Assembly (NCBI GenBank): GCA_019694655.1
Contig: JAIBBN010000002.1
Span: 186,001-250,000 of the forward strand
Source of the DNA: Leptospirales bacterium
Lineage (GTDB): Bacteria; Spirochaetota; Leptospiria; Leptospirales; Leptonemataceae
Reading direction: 5' to 3'
DNA length: 64,000 bases
The position numbers and the translations under genes were made by a program. Numbering within the stretch: the first letter of the stretch is position 1; the number at the start of each line of letters is the position of its first letter. The notes below the pieces were generated by a model. The model was not told where the DNA came from. It searched no databases and worked only from the letters and a program-made list of their open reading frames with translations. Of the stretch, positions 47,904-61,620 are shown piece by piece.

Positions 47904-49898
47904 ATGCGTCGCTCCCAGGAGCTGGTGGAGGCCCTGCTGGCGCTGCCGGCCTACCGCATGCTTAGAGAGGATGCACTGGCCTTTGGCGGCGAACAGCTTT
48001 TCATTCACTCGCCACTCTATCTTCCTGATATTGAAAAGGCGGCCGCCTGGCTGCGCGAGGCCCAGGAGGGCGGCTGGCCAACCCTGATCGTCGGCGACCG
48101 AGATGTCGACGGCGTTTGTTCAACGGCGATGATCGCCGCTTTCTTGCGGGAGCACAGCCCCGAGCCGGAACGCGTGGCGCTTATGGTTTCGGACGATGGC
48201 GACGACTACGGACTCAGCGGCGCCTTCTTCGATCAGGTCATGGCTTCGCCGGCTCGTCTTGTCGTCTTGCTGGACATGGGCACCTCCAACGGGCCAGAAA
48301 TTGCAGCCCTTGCCAGCGCTGGAAAGCGCATCATCGTACTCGATCACCATCAGCTCCACGATCGCATTGCCGATCCGTTGCACTGCGCCTTCGTCAATCC
48401 AATGCGCCTCACTCAGCCCGTCTTCGAGCACAACAACAAGATCGCGACAGTGGCATTGGCTTTCAAGTTGCTGCTGGCCTGCGCCCTGTCGCACACCCGC
48501 GACTGGCGGCGCTTTTGCTATCTGGAGACGCCCGAAGGCTGCATGGTCTATCGTCTGGGCGCCTATCTGGGTCTTGCCCCGTCGCTGGAAGCGGCCAGGG
48601 AGCGTCTCGACAAGGCGGCGGAGGGGGAGTGGACCTCGCTCTACGGCGATGACCTTTGCGATCCAGCCACGATGGAGATCTTCCAGCAGCGACCGCTGGA
48701 GGCCGGTCGCAGGCTGCTGGCAGCCTTGATTCAGACCCGTCCCAGACTGCGTGCTTTTGCACAGCGACACAGCGATCTTGCGGCGCTTGGACTCCTGACT
48801 GACATTGCGCCGCTGGTTGGAGAGAATCGTACGCTGGTTCGCGTCGGGTCCCGCGTTGCACAGCGCGGCCAGGCAAACAATTCTGGCAGCGGCGCTGGCG
48901 TTTTCCGTCCGGGATTACGGGCTCTGCTCGATCGCCTCGATCTGCCGGAACGCGACGTCCTTTTCAGTCGCGATATCGCCTGGTCGGTCGGACCGACGCT
49001 GAACGCCGCGGGTCGGATGGGAAACACGCGTCTGGCCCTGGATCTCTTGATGGAAGAAGATGTAGCGCAAGCAGCGCGACTGGCGCAACAGTTGATTGCA
49101 CTAAACGAAGAGCGCAAGCGTAGAACCGGGAGAAACCAGGAGATTGCCGACCAGTGGTTGAGTTCGCATCCGGAATGCATTGGCCCCGGATTGCTTTTCT
49201 GCTACCACCCGGATCTTAAGCCAGGCGTTTCAGGAATCGTCGCCGCGCGCCTGTCCGAACGCTATGACCGGACAGCCGTCTACGTTAACCTCGATGGGGA
49301 GCGAGCTAAGGGCTCCGTGCGCAGTACGCCTGGCGTAGATGCAGTGAAGCTGCTGGAGTATGCCGCCGATTTGCTGATCCAGTACGGCGGCCATCCGGAG
49401 GCGGCGGGATTCTCTCTTGCGCCGGATCGGATTGCTGAGCTTCAGAAGCGCCTGCTTTCACTTCCTCAGGAACGCTACGCCGCTCCCGAATTCGCAGCGA
49501 CGCCGGGGGACGCCCTCGTTGCAATCAGTGTGCGACCCGGCGAAATCAGCGAAGAACTTTATCGATTGCTGAGCGAGCTGGAACCCTTTGGTCCTGGGAA
49601 TCCGGCGCCAATGCTCCACCTGAGAAACGTCACACCCGCCCAGATCAAGCCGATGAAGAACGGACTCCACCTTCGCTTTCAAGTTCAGGGGATGAATCCC
49701 AGGATCGACGCCGTCGCCTGGCGCCTGGGTCCAAAAATCCAGCAATTGCTGGATGCATCCAGTTCAATCGACTTAGTAGGGGCGCTTGAACTCAGCGCCT
49801 TTGCCGGTCGTCGCCGCCTGCAATTCCGCGTCGAAGAAGTGCAATCCGCCGCAGCCCTCTCAGGGAGCGGCGTCCTTGACGATGGATCCGTTCTTTGA
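47904..49898 (+). CDS. recJ: Single-stranded-DNA-specific exonuclease RecJ
   Basis: The ATG at 47904 has a perfect AAGGAGG at 47893-47899; upstream ATGs at 47853 and 47862 lack one. The DHH-family motifs are visible: VGDRDVDGVCSTAMI, LLDMGTS, VLDHHQLHD. The DHHA1 domain has YGGHPEAAGFSL, and an OB-fold follows in the last 120 residues. RecJ degrades 5' ends of single-stranded DNA in repair and recombination. Length and domain set are normal. The 3' end overlaps the convergent cytochrome gene by 39 bases. Confidence 0.93.
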   Translation: MRRSQELVEALLALPAYRMLREDALAFGGEQLFIHSPLYLPDIEKAAAWLREAQEGGWPTLIVGDRDVDGVCSTAMIAAFLREHSPEPERVALMVSDDGDDYGLSGAFFDQVMASPARLVVLLDMGTSNGPEIAALASAGKRIIVLDHHQLHDRIADPLHCAFVNPMRLTQPVFEHNNKIATVALAFKLLLACALSHTRDWRRFCYLETPEGCMVYRLGAYLGLAPSLEAARERLDKAAEGEWTSLYGDDLCDPATMEIFQQRPLEAGRRLLAALIQTRPRLRAFAQRHSDLAALGLLTDIAPLVGENRTLVRVGSRVAQRGQANNSGSGAGVFRPGLRALLDRLDLPERDVLFSRDIAWSVGPTLNAAGRMGNTRLALDLLMEEDVAQAARLAQQLIALNEERKRRTGRNQEIADQWLSSHPECIGPGLLFCYHPDLKPGVSGIVAARLSERYDRTAVYVNLDGERAKGSVRSTPGVDAVKLLEYAADLLIQYGGHPEAAGFSLAPDRIAELQKRLLSLPQERYAAPEFAATPGDALVAISVRPGEISEELYRLLSELEPFGPGNPAPMLHLRNVTPAQIKPMKNGLHLRFQVQGMNPRIDAVAWRLGPKIQQLLDASSSIDLVGALELSAFAGRRRLQFRVEEVQSAAALSGSGVLDDGSVL

Positions 49899-50351
49899 GC
49901 TCAAATAGTACACGACTTCCCAAACTTGAACATCGCTGATCGACTGTCCGCCGCGGGCTGGCATCGGCGTGCCGCTTGGTTGTTTTGTCTGTCCGCCAGG
50001 AACGCCACGCATGATCAAGCGGCCGAGATTAACTTCGTTGTCATAGTGCAGCCAGGTTGCATCGCTGAGCGAAGGGCCGGCACCGCCTTCGCGGTTGGCG
50101 CCGTGGCAAGCCACGCACACCTGCTGGTAGGTTTTCTCTCCGCTGGCAATTGCGGCAGGACTGCGCGGCGGCGGCGGCGCCACGGAACGCGGCTGCACGA
50201 AATCAAGACCCTGCGAGGCGCGCAAACTTTGCGCGTTGCTCTGTCCCAGAAATCCCTGCATGAAAATTGCGTAGCCGACTCCGGCCAGCAGCGCGCCGAA
50301 AAACAGAAAAAGGATCCAATTTGGAACGCCCTTCGTATCGTTGTGGCTCAT
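49860..50351 (-). CDS. CcoP-like monoheme cytochrome c
   Basis: The 163-residue protein has one N-terminal membrane helix (NWILFLFFGALLAGVGYAIF), as in CcoP/FixP, and a Pro-rich linker. One heme motif, CVACH at residues 79-83, and MPARGG with the probable axial Met make a single class I cytochrome domain. True CcoP has two such domains and is near twice this length. A GAGGAT site precedes the ATG. It is the last gene of the respiratory operon and follows the CcoO-like gene closely. Confidence 0.8.
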   Translation of the reverse strand: MSHNDTKGVPNWILFLFFGALLAGVGYAIFMQGFLGQSNAQSLRASQGLDFVQPRSVAPPPPRSPAAIASGEKTYQQVCVACHGANREGGAGPSLSDATWLHYDNEVNLGRLIMRGVPGGQTKQPSGTPMPARGGQSISDVQVWEVVYYLSSKNGSIVKDAAP

Positions 50352-50384: not shown

Positions 50385-51077
50385 TCAATTCGTGGCGTAG
50401 AATTTGCCGGCGGATTCTCGCTGTCGTTTGCCAAGACTGAGCAGGTAGGCGACCAGCGCGTCGCCGCGCGTTTGATCGGCAAGCTGCGTGAACGCGCTGC
50501 GCTGTTGCGGATCAGAAATTGGCGAACCAGCATTCATCTGCATACGCGTCCGCCAGCTCAAGCCAAGCGGATCGAGGCCATCGTCAGTTTGAAACAGGTG
50601 GCCAAAACGGTGGAACACAGCACGGGGCGTATCGGATTTCTTGCTTTGAAGCAAGCCGCGCAGCTGTGATTCATCCATCCGACCGGATAAGCGCGCCAGA
50701 TCCGGTCCAATCCGAACGCTTCCACGCATCGCGGGACTTTCGTAGTAGTATTCCATCATATCCGGCGCCAGAAAGTAGCCATAGGATTCGGCATTGGCCA
50801 TACGCAAGGCTTCCCACGCAATGGGGCGCAAGGCTTGCGTGTGACAGTACTGGCAGCCCTCTTCAAAGTACACCTGCTGGCCGGCAATTTCCAGCTGCGA
50901 CGGAGGATGAAGGTTTGCCATCGAACCGTGGCTGGGGAGCGCGTTACGTCGGAACGGGAGCCACACGACAGCGGTGATGGCGAACAGCGATGCCGCCAGC
51001 AGAGCAATAGCCAGGCGCTGTGGATTCTGGAAGCAGGCGGCCACGCGGGCCAGAATGTTTTCGTAAAGTGCGCTCAT
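50385..51077 (-). CDS. CcoO-like monoheme cytochrome c
   Basis: The 230-residue protein has a membrane helix at about residues 22-42 and then the CcoO pattern: QQVYFEEGCQYCHTQALRP (heme at residues 75-79), YFLAPDMMEYYYESP and RIGPDLARL. In normal CcoO a short S-x-MP-x-Y segment supplies the axial Met; here the corresponding region reads PRAVFHRFGHLF, so a His or another Met may serve. Its ATG overlaps the stop of the CcoN-like gene (TGATG). In cbb3 oxidases CcoO passes electrons to CcoN, which here lacks its cofactors. Confidence 0.85.
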   Translation of the reverse strand: MSALYENILARVAACFQNPQRLAIALLAASLFAITAVVWLPFRRNALPSHGSMANLHPPSQLEIAGQQVYFEEGCQYCHTQALRPIAWEALRMANAESYGYFLAPDMMEYYYESPAMRGSVRIGPDLARLSGRMDESQLRGLLQSKKSDTPRAVFHRFGHLFQTDDGLDPLGLSWRTRMQMNAGSPISDPQQRSAFTQLADQTRGDALVAYLLSLGKRQRESAGKFYATN

Positions 51078-52627
51078 CAGTGGGCTCCGTGACCTGCAGC
51101 ATTCTGGCCAGCGCTGCGGGCTACGCCAGTATTGAAGGAATACGTTGTATAGGGACGGCTGCCAAGTCGCGCCAGAAGCGCCGCAAATGCGCCGGCCAGC
51201 GCACACAACGCGACCAGCAGGCTACCGGCCAGCTCAAATCCCGGAAAACTGATCGCAATGCGCAGCGCCTCAGAGGGGGGTTCTGGAGCCGGCGAACCAG
51301 CCGTCATCAACGGCGTTGTTGCCGGCTTCTCCAGCAGCGAACCGCGTGCATTCGCTTCAACCCACTCCTTGTGCGCCAGGGCCTCGCCCTCCATTGCCGA
51401 CAGATGCAATGCTTGTGTAATACCCTGCAGGCTAAAGGTAAGCAGGAGGACAAGAACCGCCAGACCGCCGCTGATCATTAGAACTCGACGCGCTGCCAGC
51501 GGGCTACTGCGGCCAAGATTCAATTCGTAGATCAATACGCCAATGGCGCTCATTCCCAGGATGCCATAGATGCTGGCATCGATCATGATATTGCGAAGAT
51601 CGAGCGCCGTATAGCCAAGTTGTGCCTGAACGGACGGAAAGGCGCTCAGGATGCGCACTACGGCAAAGACGCTGATCAACGCAGCGCTCCAGCGCAGGGC
51701 CATGCCAAGATGATTGGATCGAACTCTGGTGGCGCCCCTGGTAAAACTGTAGTGAGCGCCAAAGGAGAGCGAAAGGATCGCCGCGCCCAGAGCAATCGCG
51801 CCGGCCACGCCCAGGTTTTGCAGCAGCCCCGGCGCGGCGCTGAATACAAGGGCGCCTGCGGCCGCCAGCGGCAGAACCACTGCTGTTGCTCCAAGCCCAA
51901 AATGGGTCATCGCGGCCGAGTAGTCGCGGAGCCCGTAAAACTTAGGAATAGCGAAGTAAAGTCCGGTTAGAATCGGGATTACGATAAAGTAAACCAGAAC
52001 TCCAAGCCGGTAGACCTCTTGCACAGCTTGATCCTGCATTCCGGTGAATGGACTTACTGCGCTGAACAGGCCGTAAGGCAGAGCCAGGTTGCCAATCAGC
52101 CAGGTGCTCAGCATGCCTGAGAGTCCGCCTACGGCCAGAACGCCGCGCAGATCAAATTTGCCGGACTGCTTGAAGCCATCAATCATTGCCGCGAGGGCAG
52201 CCAGTATGCTCAACAGATAGAGTTCATCGGCCGGCCAGCTCAGCTCGCCAAACTCGCGACCGCTGTTGGCGCCTGCCAGTATTCCAATGATGCCAACCAG
52301 CAGGCCCAGGATATAGAGCAGAAGGGCGAGGCAGGCGGCGGGGGCCAGTCTTGGCGTGACGCCGGACGAATCTTTCAAAATGGAAAAGCAAAGCGCCAGG
52401 AATACGCCGAAAAATCCGCCGAAGATCAGCAGGTTATTAGCGACCGGCGCCAGATAGCCGTAGTCAAATAGGAGCGGCAGATTGCCTGGCTGAACTGCAA
52501 GGACAAATCGTCCAAGGCTGTAGAGCACGGCGCCAATCGCGCCAAAGGCCAGGCCAATTCCGGCGCCAATTCGAATAGCGCCATCCAGGTTGCGGCTTGA
52601 ATCAAACATTCTCTTTAGAAGCTTCAT
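51077..52627 (-). CDS. CcoN-like membrane protein lacking all heme and copper ligands
   Basis: About 12 membrane helices follow the CcoN plan. Several CcoN landmarks align: NSGREFGELSWPAD, FTGMQDQAVQEVY, YFAIPKFYGLRDYSAAMTHFGL and AAPGLLQNLG. At the ligand sites the histidines are gone: helix II PLHTN is PVANN (A63), helix VI YGHN is YRLG (L208), helix VII GPHHLLYTALP is AAGALVFSAAP (G258, A259), and helix X HVHSGALG is ASIYGILG (A351, I353). The cross-linked Tyr position is Leu. It cannot be an oxygen reductase. The comparison uses family motifs from memory; the frame is intact and the gene is embedded in the operon. Confidence 0.8.
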   Translation of the reverse strand: MKLLKRMFDSSRNLDGAIRIGAGIGLAFGAIGAVLYSLGRFVLAVQPGNLPLLFDYGYLAPVANNLLIFGGFFGVFLALCFSILKDSSGVTPRLAPAACLALLLYILGLLVGIIGILAGANSGREFGELSWPADELYLLSILAALAAMIDGFKQSGKFDLRGVLAVGGLSGMLSTWLIGNLALPYGLFSAVSPFTGMQDQAVQEVYRLGVLVYFIVIPILTGLYFAIPKFYGLRDYSAAMTHFGLGATAVVLPLAAAGALVFSAAPGLLQNLGVAGAIALGAAILSLSFGAHYSFTRGATRVRSNHLGMALRWSAALISVFAVVRILSAFPSVQAQLGYTALDLRNIMIDASIYGILGMSAIGVLIYELNLGRSSPLAARRVLMISGGLAVLVLLLTFSLQGITQALHLSAMEGEALAHKEWVEANARGSLLEKPATTPLMTAGSPAPEPPSEALRIAISFPGFELAGSLLVALCALAGAFAALLARLGSRPYTTYSFNTGVARSAGQNAAGHGAH

Positions 52628-52657: not shown

Positions 52658-53578
52658 CTACTCGCGGCCGGTCAGCCCTCGCACATAGGAATAGAGATCA
52701 TTCCACTCATCCTCTGTCCAGCTATCCATTCCGCTGACATGCAATGCATTGGAATCTGCATGCGCGCCGCGAAAACTGGCAAGACTGGCCGCGCCGGGCG
52801 CGCTACGCAGGTCGGCTGTGGAAAGATAGGCTCCACACAATCGGCCGTCTGCTTTGCAAGAATAGAGTCCAAAGCGCTGGGCGGCGCCGCGTCCTTCGCC
52901 AAAAGCGCCATGACAACCGGAGCAATTGCGCGCGTACACTTCGGCTGCAGGATGATCAGCCAATTGCGCGGCGCTGTCACGCCTCGCTTGATCCACGGCG
53001 CCTGCCGAGCCCTGATCGACTGGATTTGCAGCGCCAAGCATACTTTGCAAATCCGGCGATGCCGGTCGCTCCCCGATCGGCTTGTAGCCCATTTCCCAGC
53101 GTCGCGAAGCAGCATATGCCGTCCGGGTCTCGCTCGCAGCGGCCGCCAGGGCGGCATTTCTTTCCGCTGCAGCGGCGCCGACTGGCTGCTTGGTCATTGC
53201 GTAGAGAAAGTAGGCCATGGCCCAGCGGCCGCGGTCCGTATAGGATTGAAAAGCGTGCGAGGGCAGGCGCTCGCTACCCACAGTGATCGTCTTAAAAAAG
53301 TCATTGGGCGTCCGCGCCGGAGGAATTTCGGCATCACGGAAGCCTGGCGTAACAATGCCTCGGGCTGAGAGTTCGGCCGTATCGCTGCCGTGACCATCAA
53401 AGAGGACGCCGTGGCAGGATGCGCATCCGGCGGAATTATACATCACCGAACCGAAGAATCGCACTTCGGCATCATTTGCATAGACCGGCTTGTCAGCAGG
53501 GCGACAATGCGTCGCTCCCAGCAGCAATGAGCCGACAGCAGCTACAAAAAAAGTAGTTCTCAAGATCATATCAGTCAT
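52658..53578 (-). CDS. Diheme cytochrome c lipoprotein
   Basis: The signal peptide ends LLLGATHC, a relaxed lipobox. Two heme motifs are present, CASCH at residues 52-56 and CSGCH at 219-223, each in its own cytochrome c domain joined by an Ala-rich helical linker (about residues 130-160). The last domain carries two extra Cys (LYSCKADGRLC) that may form a disulfide. It lies between actF and the CcoN-like gene, so it may pass electrons between ACIII and that module. It is not one of the standard ACIII subunits I know. Confidence 0.8.
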   Translation of the reverse strand: MTDMILRTTFFVAAVGSLLLGATHCRPADKPVYANDAEVRFFGSVMYNSAGCASCHGVLFDGHGSDTAELSARGIVTPGFRDAEIPPARTPNDFFKTITVGSERLPSHAFQSYTDRGRWAMAYFLYAMTKQPVGAAAAERNAALAAAASETRTAYAASRRWEMGYKPIGERPASPDLQSMLGAANPVDQGSAGAVDQARRDSAAQLADHPAAEVYARNCSGCHGAFGEGRGAAQRFGLYSCKADGRLCGAYLSTADLRSAPGAASLASFRGAHADSNALHVSGMDSWTEDEWNDLYSYVRGLTGRE

Positions 53579-53591
53579 CCCAACGCAAAGC

Positions 53592-54896
53592 CTACTGATG
53601 GAAGTGGAGGCATTCCTCCAGCCGCGGGTCCTTTTGCGGTATCAAAGCGTGTCTTTCCAGCATCTTGCCAATGATGAGCACAAAAGAACCGCCCACAATC
53701 AGCAGCGGTCCCAATTCAGCCAGCAGAACCGGTACTCCGCCATCGTGGTGCAGTACCGGATAGAGAATCCAGAACATGTCCAGCACCTGGCCAAACAAGA
53801 CCAGAATGGCCACACGCTTCATGTAATTGTAGTCGCGCTTCGGTTCGCGACGCACCAGCAAAAAGAAAGGCGCCACAAAGCGAGTAAGTACCAGCAACAA
53901 AGTTACGTAGTACCAACCGCCTGTCAGTCGATACTGATACCACACCGTCTCTTCGGGTATATGGCCGTAATAGATCAGCATGTATTGGCTTACAGCAATG
54001 TAAGTCCAGAAAATCGTGTGCCCGAACATGAACTTGCCCAGGTCATGGAAGTGATTCTCATTCAGCGCATCGCCGTAGTAGCCATTTTTTTTCAGATACC
54101 AGACCCATAGCACCAGCGAGGCATACAGCGTCAGCGCCATGCCGGCAAAAATGTAAACGGCCCAGATTGTGGAGAACCAGTGCGGATAGGTGCTCATCGA
54201 GAGGTCCCAGCCGCTGATGGAGTAGCTGAGTCCAAAAAAGACCAGAAAGCCGCCGCCTAGTTTGGCCATCAGCCGGGTCCGTGAAATACGGCCGTCCGCG
54301 TCCTGACTGGTTGATTGCTTCCAGAATAAGAATCCAAAAAGGATCCAGAGCAAGACAATGATTACGTTGCGGAGCTCAAAAGTCGGTCGGTTCAGCCACC
54401 AGCTCTTCTTCTGAATCAGCTCGTCTGTGGCCGGTGCGTGCACCCAGTGGCTGAATACAGAATCCATTCCACCGCCAAAGAGCACTATGGCTATCAGTAG
54501 TAGAGGGACAGGCAGGAACCACCAGTAGTTCTCAGCTACCCTGCGGACCGTCACATTCCACGCTGCGCCGGCAAGGTGATTCACTGCTACAAAGAAGATT
54601 CCGCCCAGGCCCAGCGGAATTGCAACCAGCGCGGCCAGATGAATAGCAAAGAAAAACCGCGGATTCCATGCCCCGGCTTCATGTTCGCCCCCGCTATGCT
54701 CTGCCGCTGTTGCACCATGCTCAGCCGCATGCTCGCTGGCCGCGTGTTCCCCGCCAAGCGTCCAATGTGGCGCCAGACCAAGCGCCAGCACAACCGTCAG
54801 GGCAAGGCCCACGCCGATCAGCGCCAGGCAGATTGTTTGCAGCCGACCAGGCATGCGAAACTTCAATTTTTCTTCTGATACTACGCTGGTTGACAC
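53592..54896 (-). CDS. actF: Alternative complex III subunit ActF
   Basis: ActF is a polytopic membrane subunit that helps bind quinol. The 434-residue protein has about ten helices and the family-like segments AENYWWFLPVPLLLIAIVLF, SFMLSTY-type YSISGWDLSMSTYPHWFSTI and FHDLGKFMFGHTIFWTY. The loop after the first helix is rich in His and Glu (about residues 49-75), an unusual feature. A GTG start with GAGGGAG before it is clear. The diheme cytochrome gene follows 13 bases after its stop. Confidence 0.9.
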   Translation of the reverse strand: MSTSVVSEEKLKFRMPGRLQTICLALIGVGLALTVVLALGLAPHWTLGGEHAASEHAAEHGATAAEHSGGEHEAGAWNPRFFFAIHLAALVAIPLGLGGIFFVAVNHLAGAAWNVTVRRVAENYWWFLPVPLLLIAIVLFGGGMDSVFSHWVHAPATDELIQKKSWWLNRPTFELRNVIIVLLWILFGFLFWKQSTSQDADGRISRTRLMAKLGGGFLVFFGLSYSISGWDLSMSTYPHWFSTIWAVYIFAGMALTLYASLVLWVWYLKKNGYYGDALNENHFHDLGKFMFGHTIFWTYIAVSQYMLIYYGHIPEETVWYQYRLTGGWYYVTLLLVLTRFVAPFFLLVRREPKRDYNYMKRVAILVLFGQVLDMFWILYPVLHHDGGVPVLLAELGPLLIVGGSFVLIIGKMLERHALIPQKDPRLEECLHFHQ

Positions 54897-54910: not shown

Positions 54911-55549
54911 TCAGTTGTTCCCGCCGCCGCTGGTTGCGCCGGCTGGCGCTCTGCTTTGCAGCAGTCGCACATAGCGGATTACCGCCCAGCGGTCATCCAC
55001 CGGCAGTTGATACGCGTAGGGCCGCATGCGGGCGCGCCCCATGGTGACGATATGAAAGATCTCACCGTCGCTCCAGTCCTTGATCTTGCCGGTCAACAGT
55101 GATGGCATATCTGGAAAGCGCGGCGTCACCGGCCCATCGCCAGCGCCGGTATAGCCATGACATGTGGCGCAGTAAGTATTGTAGCGGTTCTGGCCGCGCG
55201 CCAGGACCTCTGCGCTGCTCGGCAGCGGATTGTGCAAGCTGCGGGGGCCGACAAAATCCGCTGCCGCAAAAGGATATGGCTCGAAGTTTCTGGGTACGGT
55301 TCCTTCCGGCGGTACGCGAACGCCTGAGCCGGGACCGCCAAAGGCCTCATGCTCGTCTGCGCCCCGTTCCCAGGCGCTGCCCTTCACGTTGGACAGTGTG
55401 GTGAAATCTTCCTCTTGTGCTTCTACCGCCGGGCTGTCCTGCATATCCAGAAACCAATGGATGCCGGACTTATTGCCGCGATAGTTGCAGTTTGTCAGCG
55501 GCGCCAGCGCTGCCAGCAGAACAAGAATGCTCACGATTCGAGAAAACAT
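54911..55549 (-). CDS. actE: Alternative complex III monoheme cytochrome ActE
   Basis: The lipoprotein start (MFSRIVSILVLLAALAPLTNC) has AAGGA at proper spacing, so I prefer it to longer frames at 55567 and 55633. The mature protein has one heme motif, CATCHGYTGAGDGPV, and later MRPYAYQLPVDDRWAVIRYV, where the Met is the likely axial ligand. ActE carries electrons from ACIII toward its acceptor. The order actD-actE-actF is that of known ACIII operons. Confidence 0.9.
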   Translation of the reverse strand: MFSRIVSILVLLAALAPLTNCNYRGNKSGIHWFLDMQDSPAVEAQEEDFTTLSNVKGSAWERGADEHEAFGGPGSGVRVPPEGTVPRNFEPYPFAAADFVGPRSLHNPLPSSAEVLARGQNRYNTYCATCHGYTGAGDGPVTPRFPDMPSLLTGKIKDWSDGEIFHIVTMGRARMRPYAYQLPVDDRWAVIRYVRLLQSRAPAGATSGGGNN

Positions 55550-55592
55550 CTGCGTTGATCCTTTCATTCCTGGGTCTCGTTGGCCTCTGGTC

Positions 55593-56315
55593 TCAGGCCG
55601 CTCCGTGCAGTGTTGTTTGCTGGTCGCCGTCAACGCGAGCTACGTAGCTCGGTCCAAGACCCTTCATGAAATCGGCTACGCCGTCTTCAGTGTAGTTGGC
55701 TGAATCGCTGGGGATCCACAGGCAAAAGCTGTCATCCGTAATCGAAGGATGCAGCGGCTTGCGCGACGGTCGAAACATCTTGGCCAGCAAAATCAATCCG
55801 GCCACCGTAGTGTGTCCGCCAAAAAGCACCGTGAGCTCAAACCAGATCGGCACCATTGGCGGCCAGGAGAATGTTGGCTTTCCGCCAAAATTCAAGGGAT
55901 AGGATCGCAGGTTCGGAACAGCATCAAAGAATTCGAAGATTCTGGGCATGACTTGCTCATGCACGCCCGTCTGCAGCGCCAGAGCAGTGAAAAATCCGGT
56001 CAGTCCCGCGAAGAAGGTAATCCAGGGAACTTTGCTTCGCTTCAGGCCCATGTCAAATTCCAGGCCATGCACCGGGAAGGGCGTCAGGCAATCGAAGTGA
56101 GTAAAGCCGCGCGCATGCGCTGCCTTCGCCGCTTCTGAAATCTTTTCCGGACTCTTGAATAGGGCGTAAACGCCCTTGTTTGTCTCACGGTATGTATACT
56201 GAAAGAATCGGTCCAGAAAGCGAAATAGCGCATCCACCGGCGCTTGCAGGAAACGGTCCAGCCTGGGCGCCAGAGCCGCCAGCATCGAATCAGCCTTTCT
56301 TAAAGTGGTGTTCAT
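55593..56315 (-). CDS. actD: Alternative complex III subunit ActD (DUF3341)
   Basis: The protein has the DUF3341 pattern: GVYALFKSPEKISEAAKAAHARGFTHFDCLTPFPVHGLE, then two membrane helices (ITFFAGLTGFFTALALQTG and FELTVLFGGHTTVAGLILL). The ATG at 56315 has AGGAGG ten bases upstream. The role of ActD in the complex is structural. Its N-terminal 45 residues before the domain are longer than usual. Confidence 0.9.
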   Translation of the reverse strand: MNTTLRKADSMLAALAPRLDRFLQAPVDALFRFLDRFFQYTYRETNKGVYALFKSPEKISEAAKAAHARGFTHFDCLTPFPVHGLEFDMGLKRSKVPWITFFAGLTGFFTALALQTGVHEQVMPRIFEFFDAVPNLRSYPLNFGGKPTFSWPPMVPIWFELTVLFGGHTTVAGLILLAKMFRPSRKPLHPSITDDSFCLWIPSDSANYTEDGVADFMKGLGPSYVARVDGDQQTTLHGAA

Positions 56316-56341
56316 TGCCTGGGGTCCTCCTGCGACGCCGC

Positions 56342-57739
56342 TCAATGGCGCCCGTAGCCTCGAGCTGCGTCGGGCGATTTGATGACCGTCTTGATCTCGG
56401 CAATTGCAATCGTCGGCAAGAAGCGACAGAACAGCAGGAAGAGAGTGAAGAACAGGCCAAAGGAACCAAGCATGATTAAATAGTCATGGATGGTCATAAT
56501 ATACATATCCCAGCTGGAGGGCAGATAGTCGCGGTGAAGCGAAGTGACCACGATCACATAGCGTTCGAACCACATGCCGATGTTTACAAAAATGGAAACA
56601 ATCCAGAGAACATATACGTTAGTGCGCAGCTTCTTGAACCAAAAGATCTGCGGCGAAATTACGTTGCAGCTGACCATGATCCAGTAGGACCACCAGTAGG
56701 GGCCAAACATCCGGTTGATGAAGGCGAAGCCTTCGTTGGGGCTTCCACTGTAAGCAGCGATGAAGAACTCCGTGGTGTAGGCCAGACCTACGATCATACC
56801 GGTCAGGGTCACAACTTTGGCCATGTTCTCCAGATGCTTGATAGTGATGTACTCTTTCAGCTGGAACACTTCGCGCATGATGATCAGCAGCGTAAGCACC
56901 ATGCCAAATCCGGAAAAAATGGCGCCGGCCACAAAGTAGGGCGGAAAGATGGTAGTATGCCAACCAGGGATAACCGAAGTCGCAAAGTCGAAGGAAACGA
57001 TACTGTGTACGGAAAGTACCAGCGGCGCCGAAAGTCCGGCCAGAATCATGGCCGTCGATTCGTAGTGCGCCCAGCTTCGCGCGCTGCCGACCCAGCCCAG
57101 GCTCAAGGCTGAGTAAACTGCCTTGCGTGTTTTCTGCCACCAGTCGCTTTCTTTGATGCGATCTCGAACAGACGCAATGTCCGGCACCAAACCAAGGTAC
57201 CAGAAAACCAGTGAAATGGTCAGGTAGGTCGAAATAGCAAAGAGGTCCCAGAGCAGCGGCGAGCGGAAGTTTGGCCAGAGCGATCCGCGTTCATTGGGGA
57301 TCGGCGGAAACCATAGCAATACATACCATACGCGTCCGACGTGAATGACAGGGAAAATGCCTGCTGCCGCTACCGCAAAGATGGTCATGGCCTCCGCTGA
57401 ACGGTTGATGGCAGTGCGCCACTGCTGACGGAAAATATAGAGGATCGCCGAAATCAGCGTACCGGCGTGGCCAATGCCAATCCAGAATACAAAGGTGATA
57501 ATGAACGATCCCCAGCTGACCGGAACGTTCACGCCCAGGATGCCCATGCCATTGGCAAACAGGTTGCCAATCTCGAAAAAGAGCATTCCAAAGAGGGCTA
57601 CGGCAATGCCGAATGCCCACCACCATAGTTTCGTTGGAAAACTTTCCAGCGGTCGAGCGACGTCGTTGGTTACATCGCGGTAAGATTTTGCGCCCTCTAC
57701 CAGAGGAAGCGAAAGCGGTTCTTGTTCAACAGTTGCCAT
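56342..57739 (-). CDS. actC: Alternative complex III quinol-binding membrane subunit ActC (NrfD-like)
   Basis: The 465-residue protein has about ten helices of the NrfD/PsrC family. Landmarks are [38 protein letters not shown] and [24 protein letters not shown]-like segments, which line the quinol site. It oxidises menaquinol or ubiquinol and sends electrons to ActB or the cytochromes. Gene order between actB and actD is canonical. Confidence 0.94.
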
Positions 57740-57764: not shown

Positions 57765-60700
57765 TCAGGCGCTTTCATTTCTGTTTCGTATTTTGGCCAG
57801 ATAGGTGACCGAGGGCTTCACCAGCAGATAATCCAGCACCTGGTAGCCGCGTTTTCCTTTCTCGCGTTCGACCAGCTTTTTGACTCGGCTCTCTTCATCG
57901 AGAATGTTGCCGAAAGTTATCGCGCCGGAGGGGCAGACTTCCTGACAGGCGGTTATCACTGTTCCATCAGTGATGTTCTTTTCTCCGCGTGCATGGGCTT
58001 CCTGGCGCGCTGCTGCGATGCGCTGGATGCAGAAGGTGCACTTTTCAATGACCCCCCGCGTACGCACTGTGACGTCCGGATTCAGACCGAGATGCTGCGG
58101 GTCGCGGATTTCGCCGCGATTGCCGCCCCAGAATTGACTGAAGCTGGCCCCGGAGGTGGCGCCGCCCACTGCGCCATCGGCAGCGCTGCGGCGGAAGCCT
58201 TCCCAGTAGTTCCAGTTCTCATGCCAGTTGAACCGGCGGACTTTGTAGGGACAGTTGTTGGCGCAATAGCGTGTTCCAACGCAACGATTGTAAGCCATGA
58301 CATTGAGGCCTTCATTGTTGTGTTGCGTTGCCGCCACCGGACAGACATTCTCGCAGGGCGCATTTTCGCAATGCTGACAGAGCATCGGCTGATGCGCCAC
58401 ATCCGGATTCGCTTCCTCTCCAGAGAAGTAACGATCGATACGCATCCAGTGCATCTCGCGTCCGCGGCGCACCTGATCGTGACCGACCATTGGAATGTTA
58501 TTTTCGATATTGCAACTGGTTACGCAGGCCCCGCAGCCGGTGCACTGATTGAGGTCCACTGCCATATGCCAGCGGACGTCCTTGTAGTTCCACTCCGGCA
58601 TCAGCGAAGCAGTCGGATAGTAGAGCGCCTCTGGACGTAACTTGAACTGACCCGATGCGTACTCTTTGCGCGTGGTCTCGCGAAGAATGGGACGATCCAG
58701 CTGCCCGGAGCCGCTGTAGGGAACGTTGAGCACTCCCTGCGGCGTCAGCGGGTTCTTTTCCTGATCATTGAATCCGTTACGGTAGATGGTTTGCGTAGAC
58801 GCTAGATGGTACTGATCCCCGGTAGCAGACAGCTGCGCGACCATGCCGCTGAAAGCAAATGAATCAGGACCGCGTACCGATAGGCCCAGGGCATTCTGCC
58901 CAACGTTGTCGGCAATTTTTCCGGCTGCGCTGCGACCGTAGCCAAGAGCGACCAGCGCCGACTGCGGATGAAGGCCAGGCTGCAAATGCAGAGGAAGTTG
59001 GAGTGCGCCTCCGTCGGTTTTCACCGTCAAGAGATCGTCCTGCTTCCAGCCGAGGCGGCGGGCAGTGGCCGGAAGCACTGCGACAAAGTTGTCCCAGACG
59101 ATCTTTGTTACTGGATCGGGCAATTCCTGGCGATAGGCATTATTGGCCAGCGAGCCATCGCCTACCTGCACTCCATAATAGAGCCCAAGAATCAACCGGG
59201 TTCCCTCAAGCGTTTGCGCCAAAGAGGATGGAGAAGCGGGCAACTTCTCGGCGGCCTCGCCGCGGAAATTGCGCGCTGCGCGCGTAGCCCGCAGCGCCGC
59301 GCGACCTGGAGCATAGTAGCCATTTTGCAGAACAGAATTCCAGAAACGAGTAAAGCCGCCGCGGGCAAAGCCTTGCCAGCGGGCCTTAATATAGTCGTGG
59401 AAGGACTTTGCCCCGCCAAGTTCGCCGCCCGCCAGCTGGATCAACCAATCTTCCAGGCAGCGAGTTTGGTACAGCGGGCGAATGGCCGGCTGCTGAACGG
59501 ATAGAATTCCTTTGACTGGCTCTGCGTCGGACCAGGCTTCCAGGAAATGACTGAGCGGAAGGGCTGCGTTGCCCAGCAAGGCGCTCTCCTGGAGTCGGTC
59601 CACGATGCTGAGCTTGTAGGCGACGCCGCCAAGCGCTTTCTTCATGTCGATTCCAGCGGGGGCGTGGTAAAACGGGTTGCTCCCGGCCAGCACCACGCTG
59701 CGAATCTTCCCGGCGGCCATATCTGCCGCCAGCGATTGCAGCTCCGAATCAGATATTCCGGGGCTTTGCAGAATTGGCGTTCCGTAGTCGACGGTCTTGC
59801 CGTCGTTCTCCAGCAAGGAGTTTAGCAGATTGATAGCAATTTGACCGGCGGCGTTGGCGCCGTTGGCGGCAAGCGGCGAACCGCCCACCACCAGACTGCG
59901 GCCGCGCGCGTCCCACAACTCGCCTGCGATTCGCTCAATATTTTTCTCAAACGAGCCCTTCTCGTAAAGGCCCTCGCCGTGATTGAGGGCTGCAGCTACT
60001 TTTGCAGGCGTGTAGTTTTCCAGGATGCTGCGCGCCTTGCCGGCGACGGCGCCGCGGCCGCTGACCACGGCAATTTGTGCGGCAAGGCAAAGCGCGAGCA
60101 GCGCCTGATCGCCCGGGCGGATCGCAAAGCGCTCATCCGCATTGGAACCGGTAACGGTATACATCGACTCAAATGCGACCAGTCGATTGAAGCGTCCGCC
60201 GCGGCGACGAACATCGCGTCCCGAAGTGTAGTCGCGCGTGAAGACAGCAGGCAGCAGCATTGTGCCCAGAAAATCGCCATCGATGGAAACAATCAAATCG
60301 GCTCGATCAAAACGGTAGTACGGAATCAGATCGTCTCCGTAGCATTCGCGCTGACCGGCGGCAATCTGGCGCAACGTGGGATCCGCTCGCAGCTCCACAA
60401 GCCGTCCGCCCGGAAAAGCGCGCATGAACTCGCCCACCAGAGCGCGACTCGATGGGCCATTGAGCGGCCCGCTGATCAGAACATAACCGCCCTCGCGCAA
60501 CTTGCCGCGCGCCTCGCTCAGAACCTCGGCTTCCGTAGCCGACTGCTTGCGCCCGCCATTCAACTTCACAGCGCGACGCAGCCGATCCGGATCATAGAGA
60601 TCCATGATTGCCGCCCCATCGGAGGCGCTGATACCGCCGCCGCTGAGCGGGTGATCAGCATTCCCTGAAAGGTGGACCGGCCGCCCTTCGCGTGTGCGGA

Positions 60701-61013
60701 TGATCAGGCCAATGCCCTCGGGTGTAACACTTGAATAGAAAGAAGGCAATCCCGGAGTATTCTCTACCGGCTGGATCACAGCCGGTACGATTTGCTCAGT
60801 CGGACGCCGACACGCCGCGCCGGCCATCACAGCGCCAGCGCCCATCAGCTTTAAGAAGTTGCGACGGGAAAAATGCCCGCGGTCTGCCTGGCGGATTTCT
60901 TCAATATTCTCCGGAAACTCGGGCCGCGACCAATCGGAGGACTTCTGTCCTTGTTTTTCTTCGAGTGATTGCCAGTAGCGTTTCTGTTTCGTTTCCCGAT
61001 CAGTTCTGTTCAT
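57765..61013 (-). CDS. actB: Alternative complex III subunit ActB (molybdopterin-like, Fe-S)
   Basis: The protein has about 1080 residues. A Tat-like signal (SRRNFLKLMGAGA with a following Cys) is near residue 50. A molybdopterin-oxidoreductase-like domain without cofactor covers residues 100-750. The C-terminal part holds four cluster-binding sets: CTGCGACVTSC, CQHCENAPCENVCP, CVGTRYCANNCP, and CTFCIQRI with CQEVCPSG. This fits three 4Fe-4S and one 3Fe-4S cluster as in known ActB. The ATG at 61013 is the first that excludes overlap with actA. Confidence 0.94.
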   Translation of the reverse strand: MNRTDRETKQKRYWQSLEEKQGQKSSDWSRPEFPENIEEIRQADRGHFSRRNFLKLMGAGAVMAGAACRRPTEQIVPAVIQPVENTPGLPSFYSSVTPEGIGLIIRTREGRPVHLSGNADHPLSGGGISASDGAAIMDLYDPDRLRRAVKLNGGRKQSATEAEVLSEARGKLREGGYVLISGPLNGPSSRALVGEFMRAFPGGRLVELRADPTLRQIAAGQRECYGDDLIPYYRFDRADLIVSIDGDFLGTMLLPAVFTRDYTSGRDVRRRGGRFNRLVAFESMYTVTGSNADERFAIRPGDQALLALCLAAQIAVVSGRGAVAGKARSILENYTPAKVAAALNHGEGLYEKGSFEKNIERIAGELWDARGRSLVVGGSPLAANGANAAGQIAINLLNSLLENDGKTVDYGTPILQSPGISDSELQSLAADMAAGKIRSVVLAGSNPFYHAPAGIDMKKALGGVAYKLSIVDRLQESALLGNAALPLSHFLEAWSDAEPVKGILSVQQPAIRPLYQTRCLEDWLIQLAGGELGGAKSFHDYIKARWQGFARGGFTRFWNSVLQNGYYAPGRAALRATRAARNFRGEAAEKLPASPSSLAQTLEGTRLILGLYYGVQVGDGSLANNAYRQELPDPVTKIVWDNFVAVLPATARRLGWKQDDLLTVKTDGGALQLPLHLQPGLHPQSALVALGYGRSAAGKIADNVGQNALGLSVRGPDSFAFSGMVAQLSATGDQYHLASTQTIYRNGFNDQEKNPLTPQGVLNVPYSGSGQLDRPILRETTRKEYASGQFKLRPEALYYPTASLMPEWNYKDVRWHMAVDLNQCTGCGACVTSCNIENNIPMVGHDQVRRGREMHWMRIDRYFSGEEANPDVAHQPMLCQHCENAPCENVCPVAATQHNNEGLNVMAYNRCVGTRYCANNCPYKVRRFNWHENWNYWEGFRRSAADGAVGGATSGASFSQFWGGNRGEIRDPQHLGLNPDVTVRTRGVIEKCTFCIQRIAAARQEAHARGEKNITDGTVITACQEVCPSGAITFGNILDEESRVKKLVEREKGKRGYQVLDYLLVKPSVTYLAKIRNRNESA

Positions 61014-61047
61014 ACGTTCCCGGTAGCTCTGAAATTCCCGCAGCGCA

Positions 61048-61620
61048 TCAGTAATGGCAGGTGCCGCATTCCGCCAAATGAACTGTAACATTGTGACCGG
61101 GCTGCTCGCCTGGCTGCACAACATGCATATTCCCACGGTGGCAGTTCACGCACCAGCCCATGTTAAAAGCCGTGGTGATCTCGATCTTTTCCATCTGCGC
61201 TACATCGCCGTGGCATTGCTGGCACTGAAATCCAGCAGCGATGTGCGGCTTATGGCTGAAGCGCACATGATCCGGCAAATCGTGCACCTTGAGCCAGCGC
61301 ATCGGCTCGCCGCTGGCGTAGGTGCTTCGCAGGTATTGTATGTAGCGACTGTCGCCAGCCACATATTCATGGCAGCGCATGCAGGTCGCGGTATCCGGCA
61401 CCGACGCTGCAGGACCGCGTTCCACCGAGACGTGGCAAAACTGGCAGTCCATCTTTAGCTCGCCGGCGTGAATCTTATGGCTGAATGGAATCGGCTGATC
61501 CGCAGCGTAGCCCTGATACTTGGGATCTACTACATAGATCCAGTAGATCAACCCCAGAGATGAGAAGATCAGGATCAGTTTGATTAGGTGTTTGCGGATT
61601 ACAGTGACAAGTGCGTTCAT
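61048..61620 (-). CDS. actA: Alternative complex III pentaheme cytochrome ActA
   Basis: The 190-residue protein has one N-terminal helix (LIKLILIFSSLGLIYWIYV) and five CxxCH motifs at residues 59, 80, 133, 157 and 185, which makes it a pentaheme cytochrome. The extra histidines in FSHKIH and FSHKPH are the usual distal ligands of this class. It is the first gene of the operon; the ATG has no clear ribosome site, and a palindrome ending in a T-run on the coding strand lies just before it. Confidence 0.93.
   Translation of the reverse strand: MNALVTVIRKHLIKLILIFSSLGLIYWIYVVDPKYQGYAADQPIPFSHKIHAGELKMDCQFCHVSVERGPAASVPDTATCMRCHEYVAGDSRYIQYLRSTYASGEPMRWLKVHDLPDHVRFSHKPHIAAGFQCQQCHGDVAQMEKIEITTAFNMGWCVNCHRGNMHVVQPGEQPGHNVTVHLAECGTCHY

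Follow-up and report, generated by a model that had tools for sequence, protein, structure and literature searches.

Gene content of the ACIII locus

The window analyzed in this study is the whole 64,000-nucleotide stretch of contig JAIBBN010000002.1 (positions 186,001 to 250,000; assembly GCA_019694655.1) of a Leptospirales bacterium. One operon on its minus strand runs from 61620 down to 49860 in the order ActA, ActB, ActC, ActD, ActE, ActF, diheme cytochrome c, CcoN-like protein, CcoO-like protein, and monoheme cytochrome c (Table 1). ActA to ActF are all present and in order, i.e., they constitute an alternative complex III (ACIII) gene cluster, and the closest named relatives of ActC belong to Leptospiraceae and Leptospirales MAGs. 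The intergenic gaps are short or the genes overlap; the TGA of the CcoN-like gene and the ATG of the CcoO-like gene have one base in common (TGATG; position 51077). No oxidase gene follows the module in the window; at other sites, the same genome encodes an A-type CoxA and a canonical CcoN with a score of 621 bits.

Table 1. Genes of the ACIII operon in the window, in order of transcription
Feature	Position	Strand	Remarks
ActA pentaheme cytochrome c	61048..61620	-	five CxxCH in translation
ActB, Fe-S and molybdopterin-like domains	57765..61136	-	
ActC, NrfD-like quinol-binding subunit	56342..57739	-	Pfam NrfD E 1.7e-23; 72-83% identity within family
ActD	55593..56345	-	Pfam ActD E 1e-47
ActE-like monoheme cytochrome c, probable lipoprotein	54911..55633	-	
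ActF-like ACIII membrane subunit	53592..54896	-	position in Act operon constant across all relatives
Diheme cytochrome c, probable lipoprotein	52658..53578	-	conserved Cys25; first heme: His108 conserved where class I cytochromes have Met
CcoN-like membrane subunit, no heme/copper ligand	51077..52627	-	516 aa, 12 predicted transmembrane helices
CcoO-like monoheme cytochrome c	50385..51077	-	Pfam FixO E 2.3e-20; CxxCH kept; axial Met position = His156
Membrane-anchored monoheme cytochrome c, CcoP-like, one heme	49860..50351	-	His/Met type, M130 in 17/17

In known ACIII complexes, an oxidase receives the electrons of ActA/ActE, in some cases within a supercomplex (PMC5928083, PMC8361435, PMC8552683). 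The arrangement in the window resembles the ACIII-oxidase clusters of Rhodothermus (caa3) and Flavobacterium (aa3), in which oxidase-type genes lie directly downstream of ActA-F, and the loci of verrucomicrobial methanotrophs and Opitutaceae, in which genes regarded as "cbb3" are located directly 3' of ActA-F. It differs from the ACIII-oxidase clusters in that the oxidase-like core of the module cannot hold heme or copper by the known ligands, and from the cbb3 system in that a two-heme CcoP is absent and the axial Met of the CcoO-like subunit is replaced by His.

The CcoN-derived protein and its cytochrome partners

The reading frame of the CcoN-like gene is intact from its ATG start. NCBIfam TIGR00780 matches residues 53-279 of the product (E = 2.2e-12), and the score of 46.6 bits does not reach the equivalog cut-off of 583. 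In a phmmer search of the PDB, cbb3 CcoN chains rank first (5e-8), and the hhalign comparison of the CcoN-like family with the canonical CcoN of the same genomes extends over 458 columns (E = 5.6e-37). The structure was predicted with a pTM of 0.87, and CcoN fills the first seven places among the Foldseek matches of the predicted fold (E about 1e-12 to 2e-11, TMt = 0.78-0.83). Pfam COX1 misses the protein of the window and recognizes only 8 of 18 aligned members of the family. The window thus encodes a distant, full-length, CcoN-derived homologue, which shares with the CcoN of cbb3 (C-family) oxidases (TIGR00780; PDB accession numbers 3mk7, 8smr, and 6xkw) the fold, the helix plan, a profile alignment over the full length, and a CcoO-like gene downstream. 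An origin from NorB was excluded by the fold and profile rankings, in which CcoN is ahead (Foldseek E = 1e-12 for CcoN versus 8e-7 for NorB).

Unlike cbb3 CcoN, the protein lacks the six histidine residues that bind the metal and the hemes, as well as the cross-linked tyrosine. The sites of the low-spin heme b ligands are occupied by A63 and M348, that of the high-spin heme b3 ligand by N346, those of the CuB ligands by L208, G258, and A259, and that of the cross-linked tyrosine by L252; two independent alignments (MAFFT and hhalign) agree on these residues. Seven histidine residues are present (positions 242, 292, 306, 408, 419, 513, and 516), none of them at a ligand site. Every ligand position is replaced in all members of the family, by residues that vary from member to member. 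In the family alignment of 20 members, His does not occur in more than 9 of 20 at any column, and a search for a residual metal site found no column in which His, Met, Cys, or Lys is kept in more than 11 of 20. Binding of heme or copper by the known ligands is impossible in this core, and a role as a terminal oxidase is therefore not expected.

The family sample comprised 22 genomes, including that of the window. The His-less protein is encoded without an internal stop in 20 of them; the gene is missing in the other two (G009 and G019), which are fragmented assemblies with a short ActC contig. The gene order ActA-F, cytochrome c, CcoN-like, CcoO-like, cytochrome c is the same on every family contig that reaches far enough. 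With further families from the order and class included, ACIII itself is found in 40 of 41 genomes, and none of the loci examined in these sister families has the module beside ACIII. In several sister families (f3-f5; loci L168-L178), a small monoheme cytochrome c gene is located directly 5' of ActA.

Close pairs of the CcoN-like gene have dN/dS ratios of 0.028-0.045, which are approximate, as dS is 0.9-3 and thus near saturation. The values are similar to those of ActF (0.024-0.048) and the CcoO-like gene (0.034-0.047), whereas the canonical CcoN of the same genomes has a lower ratio (0.010-0.017). The protein evolves fast, with 20-35% identity to the copy in the window between genera; the gene is under purifying selection and not decaying. 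In one family member, a separate COX1-family gene with several stops (G020:C7:117067-118390) is a probable oxidase pseudogene and provides a contrasting case.

The sequence-only reading of this locus had described a CcoN helix plan that had lost every heme and copper ligand, with Leu at the tyrosine position, in a tight operon with a stop codon overlapping the CcoO-like start and without signs of decay. These points, together with the tie to ACIII, are borne out by the alignments, the conserved gene order, and the selection analysis. That reading had missed the family-wide nature of the trait, the Met-to-His change in the partner cytochrome, the canonical CcoN of the same genome, and the series in Verrucomicrobiota described below.

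In the family alignment, 17 positions do not vary, among them the charged residues R124, E128, and D199. Many invariants are also found in canonical CcoN (G57, F69, G70, E128, N180, P184, G196, D199, Y206, and P218), and the residues in common include ones on the periplasmic side, e.g., E128, N180, P184, D199, and Y206. With sides assigned from the helices of the model and an assumed N-in topology, the periplasmic loops and helix halves are more conserved than the cytoplasmic ones (mean entropy of 1.76 versus 2.12 bits, p = 8.6e-8). In the known structures of cbb3 oxidases, CcoO and CcoP dock on the periplasmic side.

The partner cytochromes retain their CxxCH motifs. In the CcoO-like subunit, each of the 19 family members has CxxCH and carries His in place of the axial Met, a residue that is kept in the canonical CcoO from the same genome (SIMPAY); coordination of this heme is probably bis-His, with a lower potential, as judged from the substitution. 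The first heme of the diheme cytochrome c has a conserved His close to the usual Met position, and the last cytochrome c of the operon keeps its Met. Since all heme-binding motifs are kept, the Met-to-His change is invariant, the diheme His is conserved, and the last Met is retained, the cytochrome relay has been altered in a specific, selected way.

ACIII-linked CcoN in Verrucomicrobiota

Among the ActC-anchored loci of Bdellovibrionota, Myxococcota, Bacteroidota, and Planctomycetota, no CcoN-like gene was found. In Verrucomicrobiota, on the other hand, ACIII loci have the order ActA-F, CcoN', CcoO', cytochrome c. The verrucomicrobial set consisted of a draw of 145 genomes and the first seven loci, and the gene context was read at 24 drawn loci and at those seven. 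Of the ACIII-linked CcoN' proteins (loci L126-L142 and L180-L206), those of 13 loci have all ligands, and those of 21 have lost the active site through partial or complete loss of ligands. In L188 (1435-2922), only the two His of the low-spin heme b are left, without the ligands of CuB and heme b3 and without the Tyr; in L199 and L203, only the first heme b His is left. The same gene order thus accommodates an intact CcoN, a protein with the bis-His heme b site only, and a protein without any ligand. A separate verrucomicrobial CcoN clade (L207, L208, L232, and L233) has all ligands and is located outside ACIII loci, beside a seven-CxxCH protein and a CcoO-like gene.

These proteins resemble the family of the window in gene order and in ligand loss; they differ in forming a separate clade that includes intact members with all ligands. 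In the tree, the verrucomicrobial copies without an active site group in a single clade next to the intact ones (100/99), separate from the clade of the Leptospirales family (100/100). A single shared ancestral loss was rejected with a p-AU of 0.0175 (ligand columns left out), in a test that is limited by very long branches; attraction between such branches would, however, favour joining the emptied clades. The ligands appear to have been lost separately in Leptospirales and Verrucomicrobiota. For the verrucomicrobial lineage at least, the module is likely to have begun as an ACIII-cbb3 gene cluster, because intact, half-emptied, and emptied CcoN occur there in the same gene order. No intact intermediate of the ACIII-linked module was found in Leptospirales; by analogy, its module may formerly have been an active cbb3 oxidase beside ACIII.

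Two genomes that resemble Methylacidiphilum (G087 and G099; loci L229 and L230) each contain three pmoA-like genes in 2.3-2.5 Mb and carry an emptied CcoN-like copy. At both loci, the His-less CcoN-like gene, CcoO', and a cytochrome c gene are followed directly by an A-type CoxA; at L218, the emptied module is followed by CoxB. The two methanotroph genomes have two A-type oxidase genes, one or two further COX1-family oxidase genes, and, in addition, a NorB-sized one. This gene set agrees with the description of Methylacidiphilum (PMC8498564). No true CcoN was found in either genome, in which the His-less copy of the ACIII operon is the sole CcoN-like protein. The ACIII-adjacent genes of verrucomicrobial methanotrophs have been described as a cbb3-type oxidase in a genome paper (PMC6688271) and a review (PMC8498564), and the genome paper ties this oxidase to oxygen affinity (PMC6688271). 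From the residues at the ligand sites, the cbb3 oxidase assigned to the Methylacidiphilum-like ACIII locus likely needs correction, and an annotation of ccoN beside ACIII can overstate high-affinity O2 respiration.

Possible role of the emptied subunit

We consider it probable that the CcoN-like protein is an ACIII-bound, cofactor-free scaffold, the periplasmic face of which carries a re-tuned relay of cytochromes leading to a separate acceptor. A protein with the CcoN fold would have lost its active site and low-spin heme site, would no longer reduce O2, and would have been kept as a structural subunit of ACIII; its physical association with the complex is suggested by gene order and by the precedent of intact supercomplexes of ACIII and an oxidase (PMC5928083, PMC8361435). 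It would fix the CcoO-like cytochrome, together with the adjacent cytochromes c, next to ActA/ActE on the periplasmic side and so form a longer exit wire from ACIII with one re-tuned step, probably bis-His and of lower potential. Electrons from menaquinol would then pass through ACIII and the wire to the separate acceptor; the simplest candidates are the terminal oxidases whose genes lie elsewhere in the genome. In general, the route would lead from an ACIII-cbb3 gene cluster whose oxidase core was emptied while the docking surface and the cytochromes were kept. This role fits the conserved periplasmic face and the heme sites retained in the CcoO-like and c-type cytochromes. It is also supported by the oxidase genes found elsewhere in the genome, by the verrucomicrobial series, and by the oxidase genes that follow the emptied modules of L229/L230 (CoxA) and L218 (CoxB), and the fast evolution of the protein fits a light structural role. 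The sequence-only reading had likewise proposed a scaffold that holds cytochromes c near ACIII, and all of the evidence is compatible with such a function, which we infer from the locus and its relatives. The protein may also have a regulatory role.

We think it unlikely that the protein acts in assembly or docking, as a tether between ACIII and a terminal oxidase that does not itself organise an electron wire. Supercomplexes of ACIII and an oxidase exist (PMC5928083), and A-type oxidase genes follow the degenerate modules in L229/L230 and L218; however, the window has no such gene after its module, and the CcoN-like gene always stands beside c-type cytochromes with intact heme sites, the ligands of which are either conserved or specifically re-tuned. 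It is rather improbable that the protein conducts protons or ions without a cofactor, or serves as an energy-coupling module of ACIII, in the manner of the NrfD-type subunits, which move ions without redox groups. The 12-helix membrane protein is encoded within an ACIII operon, its R124, E128, and D199 are invariant, and the NrfD-type ActC and ActF of ACIII, which are also cofactor-free multi-helix membrane subunits in a redox complex, have been discussed as ion-translocating (PMC5928083, PMC8076601). Unlike the quinol-interacting ActC and ActF, the CcoN-like protein has an unrelated fold derived from heme-copper oxidases; moreover, its invariant charges lie on the predicted periplasmic side, and its cytoplasmic helix halves are significantly more variable, which is not the pattern of a conserved trans-membrane path.

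A new redox site, in which the protein would bind heme b or a metal via other residues, is very improbable: L188, which keeps exactly the bis-His pair of heme b, demonstrates that intermediate states exist, but no column of the family alignment keeps His, Met, Cys, or Lys in more than the 11 of 20 members given above. A leftover of a cbb3 oxidase linked to ACIII that has lost its function, is decaying, and is carried along by the operon structure would account for the loss of all catalytic residues and the high divergence between genera but is hardly tenable, and a pseudogene was excluded, given the open frames in 20 genomes, strong purifying selection (dN/dS 0.03-0.05, with dS near saturation), the 17 invariant positions, the gene order conserved across the sampled genera, and the invariant Met-to-His change in the partner.

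The ACIII-bound scaffold with a re-tuned relay may extend beyond the window. We hold it to be slightly on the probable side that a heme-copper oxidase core became such a scaffold at least twice, in two phyla, and that the ACIII-linked "cbb3" of methanotrophs is no oxidase; the latter claim is testable in cultured strains. Within the arrangement, the ACIII-plus-oxidase gene cluster is the known part and the cofactor-free central subunit is the new part. In the literature searched, which took in few subscription papers, we found no heme-copper oxidase subunit I that lacks all ligands and yet is selectively kept, nor anything comparable; according to the sequence-only reading, no complex of this kind is known to have been described.

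Subunit I of heme-copper oxidases is a textbook catalytic protein. If the interpretation is true, a selected, fully emptied subunit of this kind in a quinol-oxidising complex would be a new reuse of the fold. It would also represent a new architecture for the exit of electrons from ACIII, the partner pathways of which are debated. The verrucomicrobial series of intact, half-emptied, and emptied proteins is a natural record of the loss.
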